From positions 1 through 43,328 of the forward strand of contig JABDLA010000064.1 in assembly GCA_013001965.1 (NCBI GenBank): a stretch of DNA of 43,328 nucleotides, in the 5' to 3' direction. Below the pieces are notes generated by a model. That model was not told where the DNA came from and did no database searches. It saw only the letters and a program-made list of their open reading frames with translations. Numbering within the stretch: the first letter of the stretch is position 1; every line of letters begins with the position of its first letter. Made by a program: the position numbers and the translations under genes. Source of the DNA: Flavobacteriaceae bacterium. GTDB lineage: Bacteria > Bacteroidota > Bacteroidia > Flavobacteriales > Flavobacteriaceae. Below are positions 29,722 through 35,699 of this stretch, piece after piece.

Positions 29722-30894
29722 TCATTCCTTGATCCTGTTATCGTCAAAGGCTGAAGGTAATAGCTTCGGAATAAATTTAATGACAAGGGGCAGCAATAAT
29801 GCACCTCCGGGAAGCATAAAAATAGCGAGGCTTGGGATACTCTTAAAAATATCCAGTAATTGCTGTTGCAATTGCTTTTGCTCTTCCTGGCTGAGATCAC
29901 GAATTGTCGACTGGGAGATTAGGCGCATCACCTCCTTACTTTCCTTTAATTCTTTCAGTAATCGTTTTTTATTGCGACTCAATAATTTTGAAACCATACG
30001 ACTGCTGTTGTCATAAAAATTCTTTACGGTATTCTTGGTACTTAGTAGTGAGATGTCACCCTTATGCTGGGAGTAAAATTTGTTGACGCTTAATATGGCC
30101 GATTGAATCTGTTGGTTGTCCAGTTGCAGGTCTTTGCCCAATTCCAGTAAAAAGACATGCTCTTCAGCATCGATCTGATGATCTCCCCAACTCGTCATAC
30201 AGCCAATATCGAATAAATACCTGCGCTCGGTCATGTAGTTAAGATGAGTAATCGCTTCATCATAATCAATTGAGTGGTAATCCTGGTAACGCAGCGAAGA
30301 TTCGATGAGTTCCATAAGGTTGTCATCGTACTTATTCTTTTGTTCTTTTGCCTGCAGCACTTTATAGCTAACGGCTTCAACTGTAGCTTCCAGATTTTTC
30401 AAATAGTCTTCTGAAACCTTGCCCGCCTTTACAAAATTGATATAGGCCAGGACATCGAGGTACAGCAAGGCATTCGTGACAAAATAATTGAAATTCTTGG
30501 TTAGGATATTTGAGTCAATCTGAACACGTTTATGAATGATGCCTTCCAGGGTCGTTGCTGATGTCTTCCTACCAAAAATCTTTCCAATTAAAGAGGTTTT
30601 ATAATCGTCTATCCCGCTATAAAATTCAATGAGGTGCTTTACAAAGGGCTGGTTTAATTCTGAATTTTTATATACGGAATTCAATGCGATAAGCAAATTG
30701 ATCTTACTGCATTCCTCTGCCGTAAGATCTTCCGCTGGCAAATAATCATTCACCACCTTGACGCTTCTCCCATAAATAAAACCGGCCTCGCGAAGACCCG
30801 AATACAAGTTATCCACACTAATGCGACTATAGCCTTTATTGTTGAATAAAGCCGTTAATAACTTGGGTATCCATCCTCTTGCTGACGGGTTCAT
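29722..30894 (-). CDS. LETM1-related biofilm-associated-type protein
   Basis: A 390-residue protein; the ATG at 30894 (MNPSARGWIPKLL) is used because homologues begin this way, although the frame is open ten codons further. The middle contains a TerB-like helical region (YLFDIGCMTSWGDHQIDAEE, FLLELGKDLQLD). The C-terminal ~100 residues are LETM1-like: LKELKESKEVMRLIS, a run of Gln/Leu (QEEQKQLQQQLLDIFKSIP) and a hydrophobic segment FMLPGGALLLPLVIKFIPK. In Bacteroidota such proteins are annotated as LETM1-related and linked to biofilm behaviour; mechanism unknown. Confidence 0.8.
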   Translation of the reverse strand: MNPSARGWIPKLLTALFNNKGYSRISVDNLYSGLREAGFIYGRSVKVVNDYLPAEDLTAEECSKINLLIALNSVYKNSELNQPFVKHLIEFYSGIDDYKTSLIGKIFGRKTSATTLEGIIHKRVQIDSNILTKNFNYFVTNALLYLDVLAYINFVKAGKVSEDYLKNLEATVEAVSYKVLQAKEQKNKYDDNLMELIESSLRYQDYHSIDYDEAITHLNYMTERRYLFDIGCMTSWGDHQIDAEEHVFLLELGKDLQLDNQQIQSAILSVNKFYSQHKGDISLLSTKNTVKNFYDNSSRMVSKLLSRNKKRLLKELKESKEVMRLISQSTIRDLSQEEQKQLQQQLLDIFKSIPSLAIFMLPGGALLLPLVIKFIPKLLPSAFDDNRIKE

Positions 30895-30934
30895 AAATGT
30901 AGTTAGACCCGCAAAATTAAGCATCCAAAATTAC

Positions 30935-31010
30935 ATTAACAAAAGATTAACAAAACCGTCTGCTCACTTTTTGCGTAAGTATGGCTGAAATCAAATTTTT
31001 ATTAACAAAA
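30935..31010. repeat. Three perfect ATTAACAAAA direct repeats upstream of the DUF4331 operon
   Basis: The 10-mer ATTAACAAAA occurs at 30935-30944, 30946-30955 and 31001-31010, all on the plus strand. The offsets are 11 and 55 bp, both multiples of 11, so the copies would lie on the same helix face. The last copy ends 11 bp before the DUF4331 start codon. It may be an operator array, or partly the A-rich leader common in Flavobacteriia. Confidence 0.5.
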
Positions 31011-31021
31011 CTTCAATAATT

Positions 31022-31675
31022 ATGAAAAAATTTAATAGTAAGATCGCAATTTTCGCTTTGCTGGTCCTTGGTGCAATTGCAATTGCTGCCGATCACATCG
31101 ATGCTCCTGCTGTACAAGGCGGAACATCTGATATCACCGATTTTTATGCTTTTCAGGCACAGGACACCAACAATATTGTCTTTGTCGCTAACGTACAGGG
31201 ATTATTAAGCCCTGCCAATACGGCCAACGCAGCCTTTGATGAGAACACCCTTGTAGAATTCAATATCGATACCGATGGCGACAATATCGAAGATCTGGTC
31301 ATTCAAGCCACGCCACGAGACGGAAAGATGTATTTCTTCGGACCGGTTGCACCGGCACAAACCGGGTTGAACAGTACCATCATGGCCGATCAAACAGTAG
31401 GGGGAATAGTTGACATTACAGCTTATGGGTCCAATCCCATCATTTCTACTAATATGGGAATGAGCTTTTTTGCAGGACCTCGAGATGATCCCTTCTTTAT
31501 GGATTTTGCTCAATACAGTGAGATCATCGCAGGAAATGCTACAAGCTTTAACATGCCCGGAAGCGATACTTTCGCCGGTACAAATGTCTTGTCCATTGTC
31601 GTCGAAGTCCCTAAACTCATGGTTGGTGGCTCAGGCACCATCAATACATGGGTAGAATCAAAACGTAAACAATAA
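31022..31675 (+). CDS. DUF4331 family protein, N-terminal-half type
   Basis: A 217-residue exported protein. The signal peptide is MKKFNSKIAIFALLVLGAIA, followed by ADHIDAPAVQGGTSDITDFYAF, the hallmark start of DUF4331 (His-Asp-Ala-Pro). Asp/Asn-rich loops (NIDTDGDNIED) may bind calcium. AGPRDDPFFMDF is the second family motif. It stops at about VVEVPKLMVGG, where full-length DUF4331 proteins continue. The following gene encodes what looks like the missing half, with its own export signal, 19 bp downstream. Confidence 0.88.
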   Translation: MKKFNSKIAIFALLVLGAIAIAADHIDAPAVQGGTSDITDFYAFQAQDTNNIVFVANVQGLLSPANTANAAFDENTLVEFNIDTDGDNIEDLVIQATPRDGKMYFFGPVAPAQTGLNSTIMADQTVGGIVDITAYGSNPIISTNMGMSFFAGPRDDPFFMDFAQYSEIIAGNATSFNMPGSDTFAGTNVLSIVVEVPKLMVGGSGTINTWVESKRKQ

Positions 31676-31694
31676 TCTAAAAATTCTTAATAAA

Positions 31695-32252
31695 ATGAAA
31701 ACCTTAAAATTAATAAGTATACTTGGTCTGGCCCTCCTTTTAACCGTAAGTTGTTCAACCAATGATGACGATATGCCAACCGGGCCAACAGGACCAAATT
31801 TCCTGGGCACTTATGTGCAGCAGGATCAAATGGGCCGACCGGCTGTGAATACTGTATTTGTGTCTTCGGCTAGCAAGGACGATTTTAATACGACCATTCC
31901 TTCTGAACAAAATGCAGCCTTTCAGGCGATGTTTGAAGCCAATTTAACAACCTTAAGTCCGGCATATGCCAATCCCGGAGATATGAATGCCCTTGGATTA
32001 GATGCTGCCGCCTTTACCGGCTTGTTGGCTACCGATGTCTTGAATGTATCACTAGATGGAACAACGACCTTTTTCGATGGAACAAATGTACTTACAGGAC
32101 GGGCTTTAGCCGATGACGTGATCACCGTGGAACTTTTGCTCATTTTTGGCGGTGAAGATTTTACCGAAAATCCCGGATTGTCTAATGACAATGTAGATGC
32201 TAATGACGTCGCATTTCTGAATTCATTTCCTTACCTCGCTTCGCCTTGGTAG
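31695..32252 (+). CDS. DUF4331-like lipoprotein, C-terminal-half type
   Basis: A 185-residue lipoprotein with signal MKTLKLISILGLALLLTVSC. The mature region begins QQDQMGRPAVNTVFVSSASKD, which corresponds to the second half of full-length DUF4331 proteins. It ends with the family tail TGRALADDVITVELLL and AFLNSFPYLASPW. It lacks the N-terminal HIDAPA motif, which is on the preceding gene. The two products probably form one complex at the cell surface or periplasm. Confidence 0.85.
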   Translation: MKTLKLISILGLALLLTVSCSTNDDDMPTGPTGPNFLGTYVQQDQMGRPAVNTVFVSSASKDDFNTTIPSEQNAAFQAMFEANLTTLSPAYANPGDMNALGLDAAAFTGLLATDVLNVSLDGTTTFFDGTNVLTGRALADDVITVELLLIFGGEDFTENPGLSNDNVDANDVAFLNSFPYLASPW

Positions 32253-32261
32253 ACCATTACT

Positions 32262-32296
32262 GATCAGGGCAAAATGTCCCAGACTGCCCTGGTCTT
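32262..32296. terminator. Stem-loop after the DUF4331 lipoprotein
   Basis: A 10-bp stem with one G-U pair, GATCAGGGCA/TGCCCTGGTC (32262-32271 and 32285-32294), lies 10 bp after the stop. It is followed by a weak TTATATTATT tail, so it may attenuate expression of the TPR gene rather than fully terminate. Confidence 0.6.
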
Positions 32297-32326
32297 ATAT
32301 TATTAAAACAAACAAAAACAAAACCA

Positions 32327-33622
32327 ATGAAAACACGTATTCACATTTTTATAATGACCACTATTTTAATCGTCCTTAACAGTTGCTCTAAGGAATCTGC
32401 CTTCAAAACCGATCCTTCCGATTATGCGATCTATCTTAACTATAGTGAGAGAGAGGCGCTCGAATTATCTAGGGAAGACTATATATTTTGGGAAAAAAAG
32501 CTGAAAAAGAATCCGCAACAATTCCCGTATAGTGTAAAGCTCGCAGCGTCTCAATCTCTATTGTTCCAGCAAACAGGACAGATTGAATTCCTGATTGAGG
32601 CAGAACAAAATTTAAAAAAAGCGTTGAGTATGACCAATTATAATGATGCTGCTCAACTTCGAGCGTTGGCTCGAAATTATATCAGCCAGCATCGATTTAA
32701 GGAAGCACTTGAACTTTTATATAAAGCCGAAAAAAACGGTGAGCGCTTGTTAGCCACTCAGAAGATGTTATTCGATGTCCATCTCGAATTGGGGAATGAA
32801 GCCATGGCATATACTTATTTAAAGGAAATTAAGGATCTGAGCGACATTGATTACCTTATTAGAATCTCAAAATGGAGTGATTACCAGGGCAATTTGGATG
32901 CGGCCATAGACTATATGGAGAAAGCCGTATTAAACGCAGAAAGCTCGAACAATAAAGGCCTCATGCAATGGGCCTATACCAACATCGCCGATTTCTACGG
33001 CCATGATGGACAAATTGAACGCTCATATCAATATTATATTAAGGCCTTAACATTAGATCCTTCTGATGCTTATGCAAAAAAAGGCATAGCTTGGATCGTT
33101 TATTCTTACGAGCGAAACCCTGAAGAAGCACTTCGAATCTTAAATACGGTGACAAACACTTATGCGGCGCCCGATTACCTTTTACTGAAAGCAGAGATCG
33201 CAGAATACATGGAAGACGATGAAACTGCCAAATCCTATCTGAACCTATATTCCGAAGCCGTCTCCAATCCACTTTATGGCGACATGTACAACGCCTATAA
33301 TATCGAGCTCATTTCTGAGGGTGAAGACAATATTGAATCTGCATTAAATCTTGCTTTAGAGGAAGTAGAGAATCGTCCTACACCTGAAACTTATGACTTA
33401 CTGGCATGGACTTTATTTCAGTTGAATGATCATAAAAAGGCTTTGGAGATCATTGAAAATCATGTCTATGAAAAAACTACCGAACCTATGGCATTGTACC
33501 ATATGGCCCATATTTATAAAGCCAACGAAAATGAACAAAAAGTGAATGAATTTAAAGCGGAGCTTGAAATGAGTTTATTTGAATTAGGTCCGTTAAAGGA
33601 ACATCCAATAAAGGCATTATAG
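32327..33622 (+). CDS. TPR-repeat lipoprotein
   Basis: A 431-residue lipoprotein with signal MKTRIHIFIMTTILIVLNSC. At least six TPR-like units follow, among them ARNYISQHRFKEALELLYKA, ISKWSDYQGNLDAAIDYMEK, YGHDGQIERSYQYYIKALTL and AWTLFQLNDHKKALEIIEN. It is likely a scaffold for protein contacts at the periplasmic or outer-membrane face. It lies third in the DUF4331 gene set, which suggests an accessory role for that module; the stem-loop between may lower its expression. Confidence 0.85.
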   Translation: MKTRIHIFIMTTILIVLNSCSKESAFKTDPSDYAIYLNYSEREALELSREDYIFWEKKLKKNPQQFPYSVKLAASQSLLFQQTGQIEFLIEAEQNLKKALSMTNYNDAAQLRALARNYISQHRFKEALELLYKAEKNGERLLATQKMLFDVHLELGNEAMAYTYLKEIKDLSDIDYLIRISKWSDYQGNLDAAIDYMEKAVLNAESSNNKGLMQWAYTNIADFYGHDGQIERSYQYYIKALTLDPSDAYAKKGIAWIVYSYERNPEEALRILNTVTNTYAAPDYLLLKAEIAEYMEDDETAKSYLNLYSEAVSNPLYGDMYNAYNIELISEGEDNIESALNLALEEVENRPTPETYDLLAWTLFQLNDHKKALEIIENHVYEKTTEPMALYHMAHIYKANENEQKVNEFKAELEMSLFELGPLKEHPIKAL

Positions 33623-33656
33623 CCTAAAGATTTGGAGTTTTTGTTTGTTTGAACTG

Positions 33657-33689
33657 AAGTGTCTGCCGTAAAATGCAGGCACTTTTTTT
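33657..33689. terminator. Intrinsic terminator after the TPR lipoprotein gene
   Basis: A 10-bp stem with one G-U pair, AAGTGTCTGC/GCAGGCACTT (33657-33666 and 33675-33684), closes an 8-nt loop. T7 runs from 33683, overlapping the stem end. The convergent anti-sigma gene ends at the same point. Confidence 0.85.
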
Positions 33690-34491
33690 ATGGTGAAGAT
33701 GATACCACGCCCAAAGTATATAATTGCTCCATTGTTGGAGTCGGGCTTCCGCCTTCCGGCTCAAGCGTAATGCCAAAGGCTTCCGAAGCATTTGGATTTT
33801 CTATGGTAAAGATCTTATTGTCATCAGATTCAAAGTTGGCAATCACGCCAAGGCTTGTAGGTGTTAGTGGATTTAGAGTTAAAGACCATAACTGGTAAAC
33901 CTTGCCTTCCGGTGGTTCAGGGAGGCCCTGAGCATCTAAATAAATGGCATTGGTAGCTTTATCCCAATACACCTTGGCATAAGTATCCTGGAAGGCCGCC
34001 TGTCCGGCTAAAGGCACTGCAATAATGTCCTTATCCCTCATTATGGCCAAAAGATTTTCTGCTTCTTTTAGATCATCCTGTGCCAATTCAATTTGTTGTT
34101 CCAGGAATTCTTTTTCGGTTTCAACGGTTTCAATATGTTCTTTTAGGTCATTATTAGAGATCATTACATAGATAAGCCCGGCAGACAAAATAACCGATGC
34201 TGCCCAACCCACATAATTGAACCAATTGATTTTCGATTCAGGAAGGGAGATCAGGTCATTATCAGGGGTCAAACCAATTTTTTCTTTGATGATTTTTAAT
34301 GTGGACTCATAGGAAGCCGGGGCAACTCCTGAGGTCAATTTTAATACAGCCTCCTCAATTTTAAGAACCTCGTTTAGAATTTCCTCATGCATGATCATAT
34401 TGGCATACACTTCCTCGTTTTCTTTTTCTGAAAGTACGCCGGCAACATAAAGTTCAAGTATGCCTGATGCTATGTATTCTTTAACGTTCAT
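33688..34491 (-). CDS. RskA-type anti-sigma factor
   Basis: A 267-residue anti-sigma factor. The cytoplasmic N-terminal domain (~1-90) begins VKEYIASGILELYVAGVL, the usual helical start of RskA proteins. One TM segment is at about 92-110 (FNYVGWAASVILSAGLIYV). A coiled-coil stalk (NDLKEHIETVETEKEFLE) is followed by the periplasmic RskA domain with GKVYQLWSLTLNPLTPTSLG and ITLEPEGGSPTPT. It binds the sigma factor encoded just upstream until a periplasmic signal triggers release. Its start directly abuts the sigma stop codon. Confidence 0.92.
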   Translation of the reverse strand: MNVKEYIASGILELYVAGVLSEKENEEVYANMIMHEEILNEVLKIEEAVLKLTSGVAPASYESTLKIIKEKIGLTPDNDLISLPESKINWFNYVGWAASVILSAGLIYVMISNNDLKEHIETVETEKEFLEQQIELAQDDLKEAENLLAIMRDKDIIAVPLAGQAAFQDTYAKVYWDKATNAIYLDAQGLPEPPEGKVYQLWSLTLNPLTPTSLGVIANFESDDNKIFTIENPNASEAFGITLEPEGGSPTPTMEQLYTLGVVSSSP

Positions 34492-35022
34492 TTAAATATC
34501 CAGCATTTGCCGAAGCTCATTAATGCAATTTCTATTTCTTGTTTTAATTGTTCCAATTGGTATTTCAAGAGTTTCCGAGGCTTCCTTTTGAGTAAATCCT
34601 TTGAAATACAGTAACTCAATGATTTTCTTACACTTATCGGCAAGTTTTTCAACAAAAGCTTTTAATCCGATAGCGTCAGTTTGCCTATTGAGATCAGTTT
34701 TATTTTGTAATATATCTACGAAAAAATCGACCTTTAGGTTTTGCTTTCCCTTTTTGAAATCCTTAGAGCGTGTTTTGTCGATGGAAGCGTTTCTGGCAAT
34801 ATTTAATAACCAGGTAAAAAAACGTCCTTTGGCAGCGGAATAGGAATCTGACTTTTGCCAGGCTTTTACAAATACATCCTGCATCAGTTCTTCAGCAATG
34901 GCCTCATCTCTTACAATATTGAAAATGACCCCACGAATACTTTCCTGATACATATGATATAGTGCCTCAAAGGCCGATTCGTCTTTTTTCTGAAATTGGA
35001 GTACAAGGGTTTCCAGGGACAT
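34492..35022 (-). CDS. ECF sigma factor (SigK-like)
   Basis: A 176-residue ECF sigma factor. Region 2 has EALYHMYQESIRGVIFNI, AEELMQDVFVKAWQK and RFFTWLLNIARNASID. Region 4 has KIIELLYFKGFTQKEASE and LEIPIGTIKTRNRNCI. The pairing with an RskA-type anti-sigma factor and the DUF4331 genes placed convergently resembles SigK/RskA arrangements. The DUF4331-TPR genes are natural candidates for its regulon, but no matching promoter pair was identified by eye. Confidence 0.93.
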   Translation of the reverse strand: MSLETLVLQFQKKDESAFEALYHMYQESIRGVIFNIVRDEAIAEELMQDVFVKAWQKSDSYSAAKGRFFTWLLNIARNASIDKTRSKDFKKGKQNLKVDFFVDILQNKTDLNRQTDAIGLKAFVEKLADKCKKIIELLYFKGFTQKEASETLEIPIGTIKTRNRNCINELRQMLDI

Positions 35023-35084: not shown

Positions 35085-35699
35085 TTACTGAATTATTCCA
35101 CCACAACTCACGCGTCCACCTGCAGCTCCTGTTGGTTGCGAAGTAAAATCATCAACGCCCTGATGAACGATAATAGCCTTACCTAAAATATCCTTGGCAG
35201 GATCGCCACAGCCAATACACCATTCACTGGTAATGAATGTTATGGTTCCTTGTCCGCTGGCATTAGCAGTAAAATTACCGATATCACCTTTATGATATCC
35301 GGTTTCTGCACCCCATTTTCCATGTGGTTCTTTAGTAGGGTTCCAATGTCCTCCAGTTGAAGTACCATCCTCCGAAGAGCAATCCGCTTTTTCGTGAAGG
35401 TGAATGGCATGCATGCCTTCAGATAGTCCGCTAAACACAGCTATCATGGTCACTACACCGTTATCTTCTTTAAATACAGCATTACCACTGACACCGCTGT
35501 TGCTTTTAGCACTAAGCGCAACTTTTAATTTATTTTCTTCGGAATTCGATGTTGAGGTAGTTGTTGTATTATTATTTGTTTCAACATCGCTGTTTTCTAC
35601 CTGAGCATCTGTTGGCGTTTCAGTTTCCTTTTTATCTTTTTTACAAGCGACGCTAAAAACAAGTATAAAAGCAACTAAAACTATGGCTATTTTTTTCAT
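35085..35699 (-). CDS. sodC: Cu/Zn superoxide dismutase lipoprotein
   Basis: A 204-residue lipoprotein with signal MKKIAIVLVAFILVFSVAC and a Thr/Ser/Asn linker (residues ~26-55). The SodC fold follows: copper ligands in MHAIHLHEKADC, zinc loop GGHWNPTKEPHGKWG and GYHKGDIGN, and VHQGVDDFTSQPTGAAGGR near the end. The structural disulfide would join Cys of EKADC with Cys of RVSCGG. An extra Cys pair, EWCIGCGDPAKD, sits next to the metal region where homologues mostly have Ser/Thr. It dismutes superoxide in the periplasm. Confidence 0.94.
   Translation of the reverse strand: MKKIAIVLVAFILVFSVACKKDKKETETPTDAQVENSDVETNNNTTTTSTSNSEENKLKVALSAKSNSGVSGNAVFKEDNGVVTMIAVFSGLSEGMHAIHLHEKADCSSEDGTSTGGHWNPTKEPHGKWGAETGYHKGDIGNFTANASGQGTITFITSEWCIGCGDPAKDILGKAIIVHQGVDDFTSQPTGAAGGRVSCGGIIQ

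Follow-up and report, generated by a model that had tools for sequence, protein, structure and literature searches.

How does a DUF4331 domain that is encoded by two separate genes relate to the extracytoplasmic function (ECF) sigma factor and anti-sigma factor genes that face it? The question is raised by contig JABDLA010000064.1 of a Flavobacteriaceae bacterium (GCA_013001965.1), whose 43,328 nucleotides are the window analyzed here and which belongs to an incomplete assembly (202 contigs, 86.7% completeness, 1.24% contamination). On its forward strand, the gene for the N-terminal part of DUF4331 (N-half, 31022–31675, 217 aa) is followed after 19 nt by the gene for the C-terminal part (C-half, 31695–32252, 185 aa) and then by a TPR lipoprotein gene (32327–33622, 431 aa, lipobox ending in NSC); the ECF sigma factor (34492–35022) and the anti-sigma factor (33688–34491) are encoded convergently on the reverse strand. 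We propose that these genes probably constitute an ECF sigma/RskA_C anti-sigma system with a dedicated DUF4331/TPR target operon, internal-promoter feedback, and a DUF4331 protein made of two subunits. The open reading frames (ORFs) and translations agree with the initial annotation of this stretch in the gene positions, the N-half leader, the C-half lipobox, the short intergenic gap, and the TPR lipoprotein; to this the present analysis adds a promoter-like element, its counterpart within the sigma gene, a co-occurrence test, and evidence on how old the split is.

The N-half starts with a hydrophobic leader followed by ADHIDAP and matches the DUF4331 model PF14224 at 3.3e-24 (86.4 bits, curated cut-off 27 bits), with its best stretch at model positions 132–237 of 421 and a second one at approximately 2–77. 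The C-half, which has its own lipobox (…TVSC-STNDDD) and acidic residues after the cysteine, covers positions 247–421 (1.4e-15, 57.9 bits, same cut-off). The whole domain was not found on one chain in the window, as one ORF follows the profile to position 237 and the other from 247 to 421, so that the two tile a single model with zero overlap and a nearly gapless junction. This bears out the earlier description of one DUF4331 protein as N- and C-terminal halves and, together with the fixed N-C gene order, supports its reading as a two-part protein.

DUF4331 was detected in 12 of 60 relatives (own genome counted) and in 52 of 392 Bacteroidota genomes, of which, by our sorting, 30 show the split form and 22 a single long chain; a scan of viral contigs yielded no relatives. 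The window, the 11 other positives among the 60 relatives, and 29 other split Bacteroidota genomes were combined into a set of 41 split loci. The two-gene arrangement thus occurs in 40 other genomes besides the window, N- and C-half genes being separate neighbors in all 41 loci, with a TPR gene 3' on the same strand in 37. In the 43 N/C pairs of these loci, the N-half ends are nearly constant (mostly ..W.E.K.KQ) and nearly every C-half starts with its own leader, which argues against a split by chance or by a recent frameshift; a recent frameshift or an assembly error was also rejected because the split is clade-wide. A second set comprised the best 80 of 556 confirmed DUF4331 loci, which leans toward close relatives and includes some stretches that end at contig ends. 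Here, a C-half gene lies beside the N-half gene in 79 of the 80 loci, a TPR gene is present in 76, the anti-sigma gene in 49, and the sigma gene in 44. The gene-neighborhood survey suggested in the initial annotation therefore found the split N-C pair, the TPR gene, and the sigma/anti-sigma pair to recur across relatives.

Single-chain DUF4331 proteins of other Bacteroidota share the PF14224 domain with the split form and also have a TPR neighbor, which adjoins the gene in 17 of 18 loci (one at only 25 bits; these loci represent 18 of the 22 single-chain genomes, with G267, G274, G331, and G403 left out). Unlike the two short chains described here, they are 565–1526 aa long and reach well past the domain. 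In a tree obtained with a short search from the N-halves of 49 split proteins and the N regions of 22 single-chain proteins, the two types fall on opposite sides of one deep branch with a support of 100. Based on this branch and on the 41 loci with the same arrangement, sequence comparison indicates that the split form is an old DUF4331 subfamily. Tandem copies were observed in both types: single-chain genes are at times repeated (L101, L102, L104, and L107 among L101–L118), and the N-C genes are duplicated as a pair in four loci (L031, L037, L150, and L193), of which L037 and L150 appear to be from one organism.

The two chains are most likely a conserved two-subunit form of what is one chain elsewhere and would probably build one envelope beta-sandwich as a heterodimer, although it is conceivable that each half-protein is a subunit in its own right with its own task rather than part of a split single unit. 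Their separate leaders, only one of which has a lipobox, could place the halves apart, and AlphaFold2 models of N- and C-half joined as one linked chain were only middling (window: pLDDT 71.3, pTM 0.72; L163: pLDDT 69.1, pTM 0.65). In these models the N-half strands are confident and those of the C-half partly so; the alignment depth was poor, since the relatives are mostly 60%–82% identical. The models are compatible with one shared beta-sandwich, and the docking of the halves envisaged earlier is weakly supported by modeling rather than proven. VIA alignments run from approximately residue 35 in the N-half to approximately 345–350 in the C-half, a range that fits one sandwich built by both halves, although the Z scores of up to 6.3 and 8.0 are at background level and values of 6–8 are common by chance. 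The immunoglobulin chains and the CBM9 fold among these matches are not convincing as structural relatives, their Z scores of 6–8 being within the range given by unrelated models. Foldseek gave no match at E ≤0.001, and a sequence search against solved structures returned none for the N-half and two chance-level matches for the C-half. Nevertheless, the nearly gapless tiling of one Pfam model, the invariable N-C order, and the duplication of N and C as a pair make independent subunits unlikely.

Of 124 C-halves, 123 have a cysteine within the first 75 residues, and at least two acidic residues follow soon after in 111 (a crude count taking the first cysteine). Acidic stretches after the lipoprotein cysteine resemble the surface export signal of Bacteroidota. 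The surface complex postulated in the initial annotation could include at most the C-half and the TPR lipoprotein, as the leader of the N-half is a plain one that lacks a lipobox. If the acidic stretch is indeed an export signal, a soluble N-half and a surface-exposed C-half would need a way to meet.

The regulatory pair facing the operon consists of an ECF sigma factor with matches above cut-off to PF04542, PF04545, and PF08281 (Sigma70 regions 2 and 4) and to TIGR02937 (83.4 vs. 42.9 bits), and of an anti-sigma factor with an RskA_C domain (PF10099, 70 vs. 29.4 bits), an N-terminal region, and a single hydrophobic stretch at about residues 89–112. The RskA-type assignment made earlier is confirmed at the domain level. 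The match to the anti-sigma factor model NF052375 (85.7 bits) stays below the cut-off of 100. The name SigK, in contrast, proved too specific: NF007228 is the best NCBIfam match of the sigma factor, but its 123.2 bits are well under the cut-off of 226, and the protein is better described as an ECF sigma factor only. As annotated, the two genes abut, with the sigma stop codon ending at 34492 and the anti-sigma ATG beginning at 34491. SigK/RskA of mycobacteria is an ECF sigma factor with an RskA-type anti-sigma factor, and the window resembles it in that the sigma gene is directly followed by one for a membrane anti-sigma factor with an RskA_C domain. Gene order and co-occurrence suggest this protein as the putative partner that would bind and inhibit the adjacent sigma factor and be subject to regulated proteolysis.

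Co-occurrence links this pair to DUF4331. Defining an anti-sigma orthologue as a match of at least 260 bits, we found one in all 12 relatives that encode DUF4331 and in one of the 48 that do not (Fisher p 7e-12, uncorrected for kinship). The co-occurrence of the two operons, on which the initial annotation had staked its reading in advance, thus held. Among the 28 same-family loci of the 41-locus set, window included, 25 have both sigma and anti-sigma genes in the stretch, in varying orientation, and the other three genomes (G024, G111, and G210) encode the anti-sigma orthologue elsewhere. In the 80-locus set, 36 loci lack one or both of these genes in the stretch; leaving out those on short contigs (L166, L169, L183, and L206), 31 of the other 32 genomes were searched completely along with 12 of the 41-locus set (43 in all). 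The orthologue was present at 260 bits or more in 33 of 33 genomes, namely all 31 of the 80-locus set plus G111 and G210. The sigma-DUF4331 link is strongly supported.

Upstream of the N-half gene, approximately 40–45 bp before its start codon, AAACC-N16-CGTA and a subsequent AGTA (30953–30981, forward strand) form a promoter element of the ECF type. Across the 80-locus set it precedes all 80 first N copies and 80 of 82 N copies overall, usually with (G/A)GTA directly after it; the two copies without it are second tandem copies, as expected for genes inside an operon. In the same-family loci of the 41-locus set, 21 of 30 N copies have the element, and the nine misses comprise two second copies and several others that are near matches by eye. 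The 200 bp before the starts of other genes at these loci served as controls and contained no element in 115 TPR, 123 C-half, 79 LETM1-related, 73 anti-sigma, and 30 superoxide dismutase genes; it was found at 8 of 1449 other ORFs, including three TonB-receptor genes of one type, one fasciclin-like gene, and, at two loci, the divergent DUF547-type and glycosyltransferase genes described below.

The same element occurs with identical spacing on the coding strand within the sigma gene (34717–34741, reverse strand), approximately 225 bp before the anti-sigma start. It is present in 42 of 44 linked sigma genes of the 80-locus set and in 27 of the 28 sigma genes obtained from 30 anti-sigma loci of genomes in which the DUF4331 stretch does not contain both members of the pair (at a few of these loci, e.g. 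L193, L160, L210, and L144, the anti-sigma gene still lies in the stretch or next to it). This sharing of the element between the N-half upstream region and the sigma gene, together with the co-occurrence, strongly supports the earlier proposal that the DUF4331 operon is an output of the sigma factor; the second role proposed there, as input from the DUF4331 complex to the RskA domain, is speculative.

It is also conceivable that AAACC/CGTA is bound by a different regulator or recognized by a different ECF sigma factor, its overlap with this pair being coincidental. The link between sigma factor and element is a prediction from sequence alone, and flavobacterial genomes hold further RskA-like paralogues, many of them giving a second match of around 100 bits. 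Against this stand the promoter-like features of the element, i.e. the fixed 16-base spacing and the distance of approximately 40–50 bp to the start, and its presence within the very sigma gene, also where the pair and DUF4331 are not together. Moreover, DUF4331 tracks the 260-bit orthologue, whereas the paralogues of about 100 bits are also found in genomes without DUF4331. We therefore regard a foreign regulator as quite improbable and recognition by the adjacent sigma factor as the preferred reading.

Codon choice provides a further argument for a function of the internal element. In 70 aligned sigma genes, the motif codons are AAC in 69 of 69, TTC in 69 of 69, and GTA in 70 minus one (69/70) sequences, compared to expected shares of 0.36, 0.21, and 0.40, respectively, which are the three largest excesses among 76 testable codon columns; the motif leucine codon is CTN in 65 of 67 cases vs. 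38% in the same loci. Shared descent weakens these counts, but equally for the other 73 columns. Protein constraint does not explain the synonym choice, and it is very improbable that the conservation reflects a protein or mRNA constraint instead of a promoter, since the conserved identity of the encoded residues N, L, F, and V leaves the preference for AAC over AAT, TTC over TTT, and GTA over GTT unexplained and the top three columns spell the N-upstream element with the same spacing.

In the proposed circuit, the membrane anti-sigma factor would release the sigma factor, which may then read AAACC-N16-CGTA promoters. The one upstream of the N-half gene would drive transcription of the N-half, C-half, and TPR lipoprotein operon, and the one inside the sigma gene that of the anti-sigma gene, so that extra anti-sigma factor could provide negative feedback. 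This would differ from SigK/RskA in the element being located inside rather than upstream of the sigma gene and in the DUF4331/TPR operon as target. A literature search for anti-sigma genes preceded by an internal promoter found nothing under the wording used and in the collection covered.

Several observations weigh against this scheme or restrict it. The element was found upstream of the sigma gene in 0 of 71 cases, and classic positive autoregulation is thus not seen. The 80-locus set was drawn from the best matches and hence from close relatives, and the linked-chain models are of middling confidence. G031 encodes the sigma factor, the anti-sigma factor, and SodC with the internal element intact (L293:9040-11071) yet gave no DUF4331 match, so that the tie between the sigma factor and DUF4331 is not an exclusive one. 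Outside the family of the window, the exact upstream element is found in 0 of 13 N copies, and ten genomes of more distant families have anti-sigma matches of only approximately 110–190 bits; G039, also outside the family, reaches 269.5 bits. The absence of the element and the weaker anti-sigma matches limit the scheme to one family. Finally, the genome-wide count by itself gives no clear excess of the element over a control: there are 45 strict matches (AAACC-N16-CGTA extended by GTA) in 30 genomes with DUF4331 and 7 in 22 without (approximately 0.3 each; G031, counted apart, has none), compared to approximately 37 and 19, respectively, for a backwards control.

A large regulon is accordingly not supported, and the genome of the window itself holds one strict match, namely the element that precedes the N-half gene. 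Under the shorter pattern AAACC-N16-CGTAR it has six matches, two of which are the N-upstream and sigma-internal elements, the other four being not evidently before a gene start by eye. Approximately 20 of the 45 strict matches are N promoters and three are sigma-internal elements. Of the remaining 22, 20 were retrieved, and for 15 of these an ORF begins no more than 350 bp away, one of the 15 matches lying inside another ORF. The products encoded beside these 15, some of which will be chance matches, include two fasciclin-type proteins, a ferritin-like protein, a TonB-dependent receptor, and two lipoproteins of a type that matches no Pfam family.

The TonB-dependent receptor type (approximately 742 aa, with a His-containing start region; L040:12381-14615, L041:11860-14085, L173:15581-17809, and L278) is encoded 3' of the TPR gene in some genomes; where it is located elsewhere in the genome, its gene has the element. 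In G013 the TPR gene is immediately followed by only a C-terminal part of the receptor, and a full copy is present elsewhere; strong matches were found in 5 of 10 genomes searched, and none in that of the window (best E-value 8.8e-5). Divergent genes for a DUF547-type lipoprotein and a TIGR04283 arsenosugar-type glycosyltransferase also have the element (L083:13728-15437 and L088:6217-7845; families checked on L083).

Fasciclin-type genes with the element occur in three loci (Pfam checked for one). The RpoE-ChrR system of Rhodobacter and Azospirillum has an anti-sigma factor of a type other than RskA_C and belongs to a different phylum. It is similar in that the ECF-controlled genes include fasciclin. 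A photooxidative-stress table for Rhodobacter includes the fasciclin gene RSP_1409 (PMC7074977), and a fasciclin gene of Azospirillum is placed under RpoE-ChrR (PMC10949492). By analogy, this parallel is a hint, and no more, at the kind of stress involved.

Other features of the locus bear on its possible function. A Cu/Zn superoxide dismutase (SodC) lipoprotein gene (35085–35699, reverse strand; PF00080, 2.1e-35) adjoins the sigma gene and is its neighbor in 22 of the 80 loci, a frequent association that makes SodC a candidate, if unproven, member of the sigma/DUF4331 module. All N copies but one have Ala-Asp-His after the leader (124 of 125, the other being Gly-Asp-His), and all 22 single-chain proteins have Ser-Ser-His. 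Xaa-Xaa-His at a free amino terminus binds Cu or Ni. A mature N-half starting with Ala-Asp-His would be a candidate for such a site, although the predicted cleavage could lie one residue later. The more far-reaching idea, which adds to the internal promoter of the proposed circuit that the chief product of the sigma factor is a metalloprotein of the envelope formed by the two DUF4331 chains, acting beside SodC in envelope defense against metal or oxidative stress, is improbable as a whole. On the other side of the operon, a LETM1-related biofilm-associated protein (29722–30924, reverse strand; NF040639) is encoded divergently upstream of the N-half gene, and a homologue lies near DUF4331 in 62 of the 80 loci. 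A terminator-like hairpin with a T tail (33656–33685, forward strand) separates the convergent operons; it is weak taken alone, as five terminator-like sites were found vs. 4.4 expected in shuffles.

DUF4331 is widespread and uncharacterized, and no paper containing "DUF4331" or "PF14224" was found in the literature collection covered. Assigning it to one particular ECF sigma factor as a target opens its role to experimental tests. To our knowledge, few ECF promoters of this sort have been defined in Bacteroidota. If the proposed circuit is true, the preservation of a promoter in the sigma gene through synonymous codon choice would clearly exemplify how coding and regulatory constraints can overlap, and the internal promoter would represent a feedback design for ECF circuits in this phylum.

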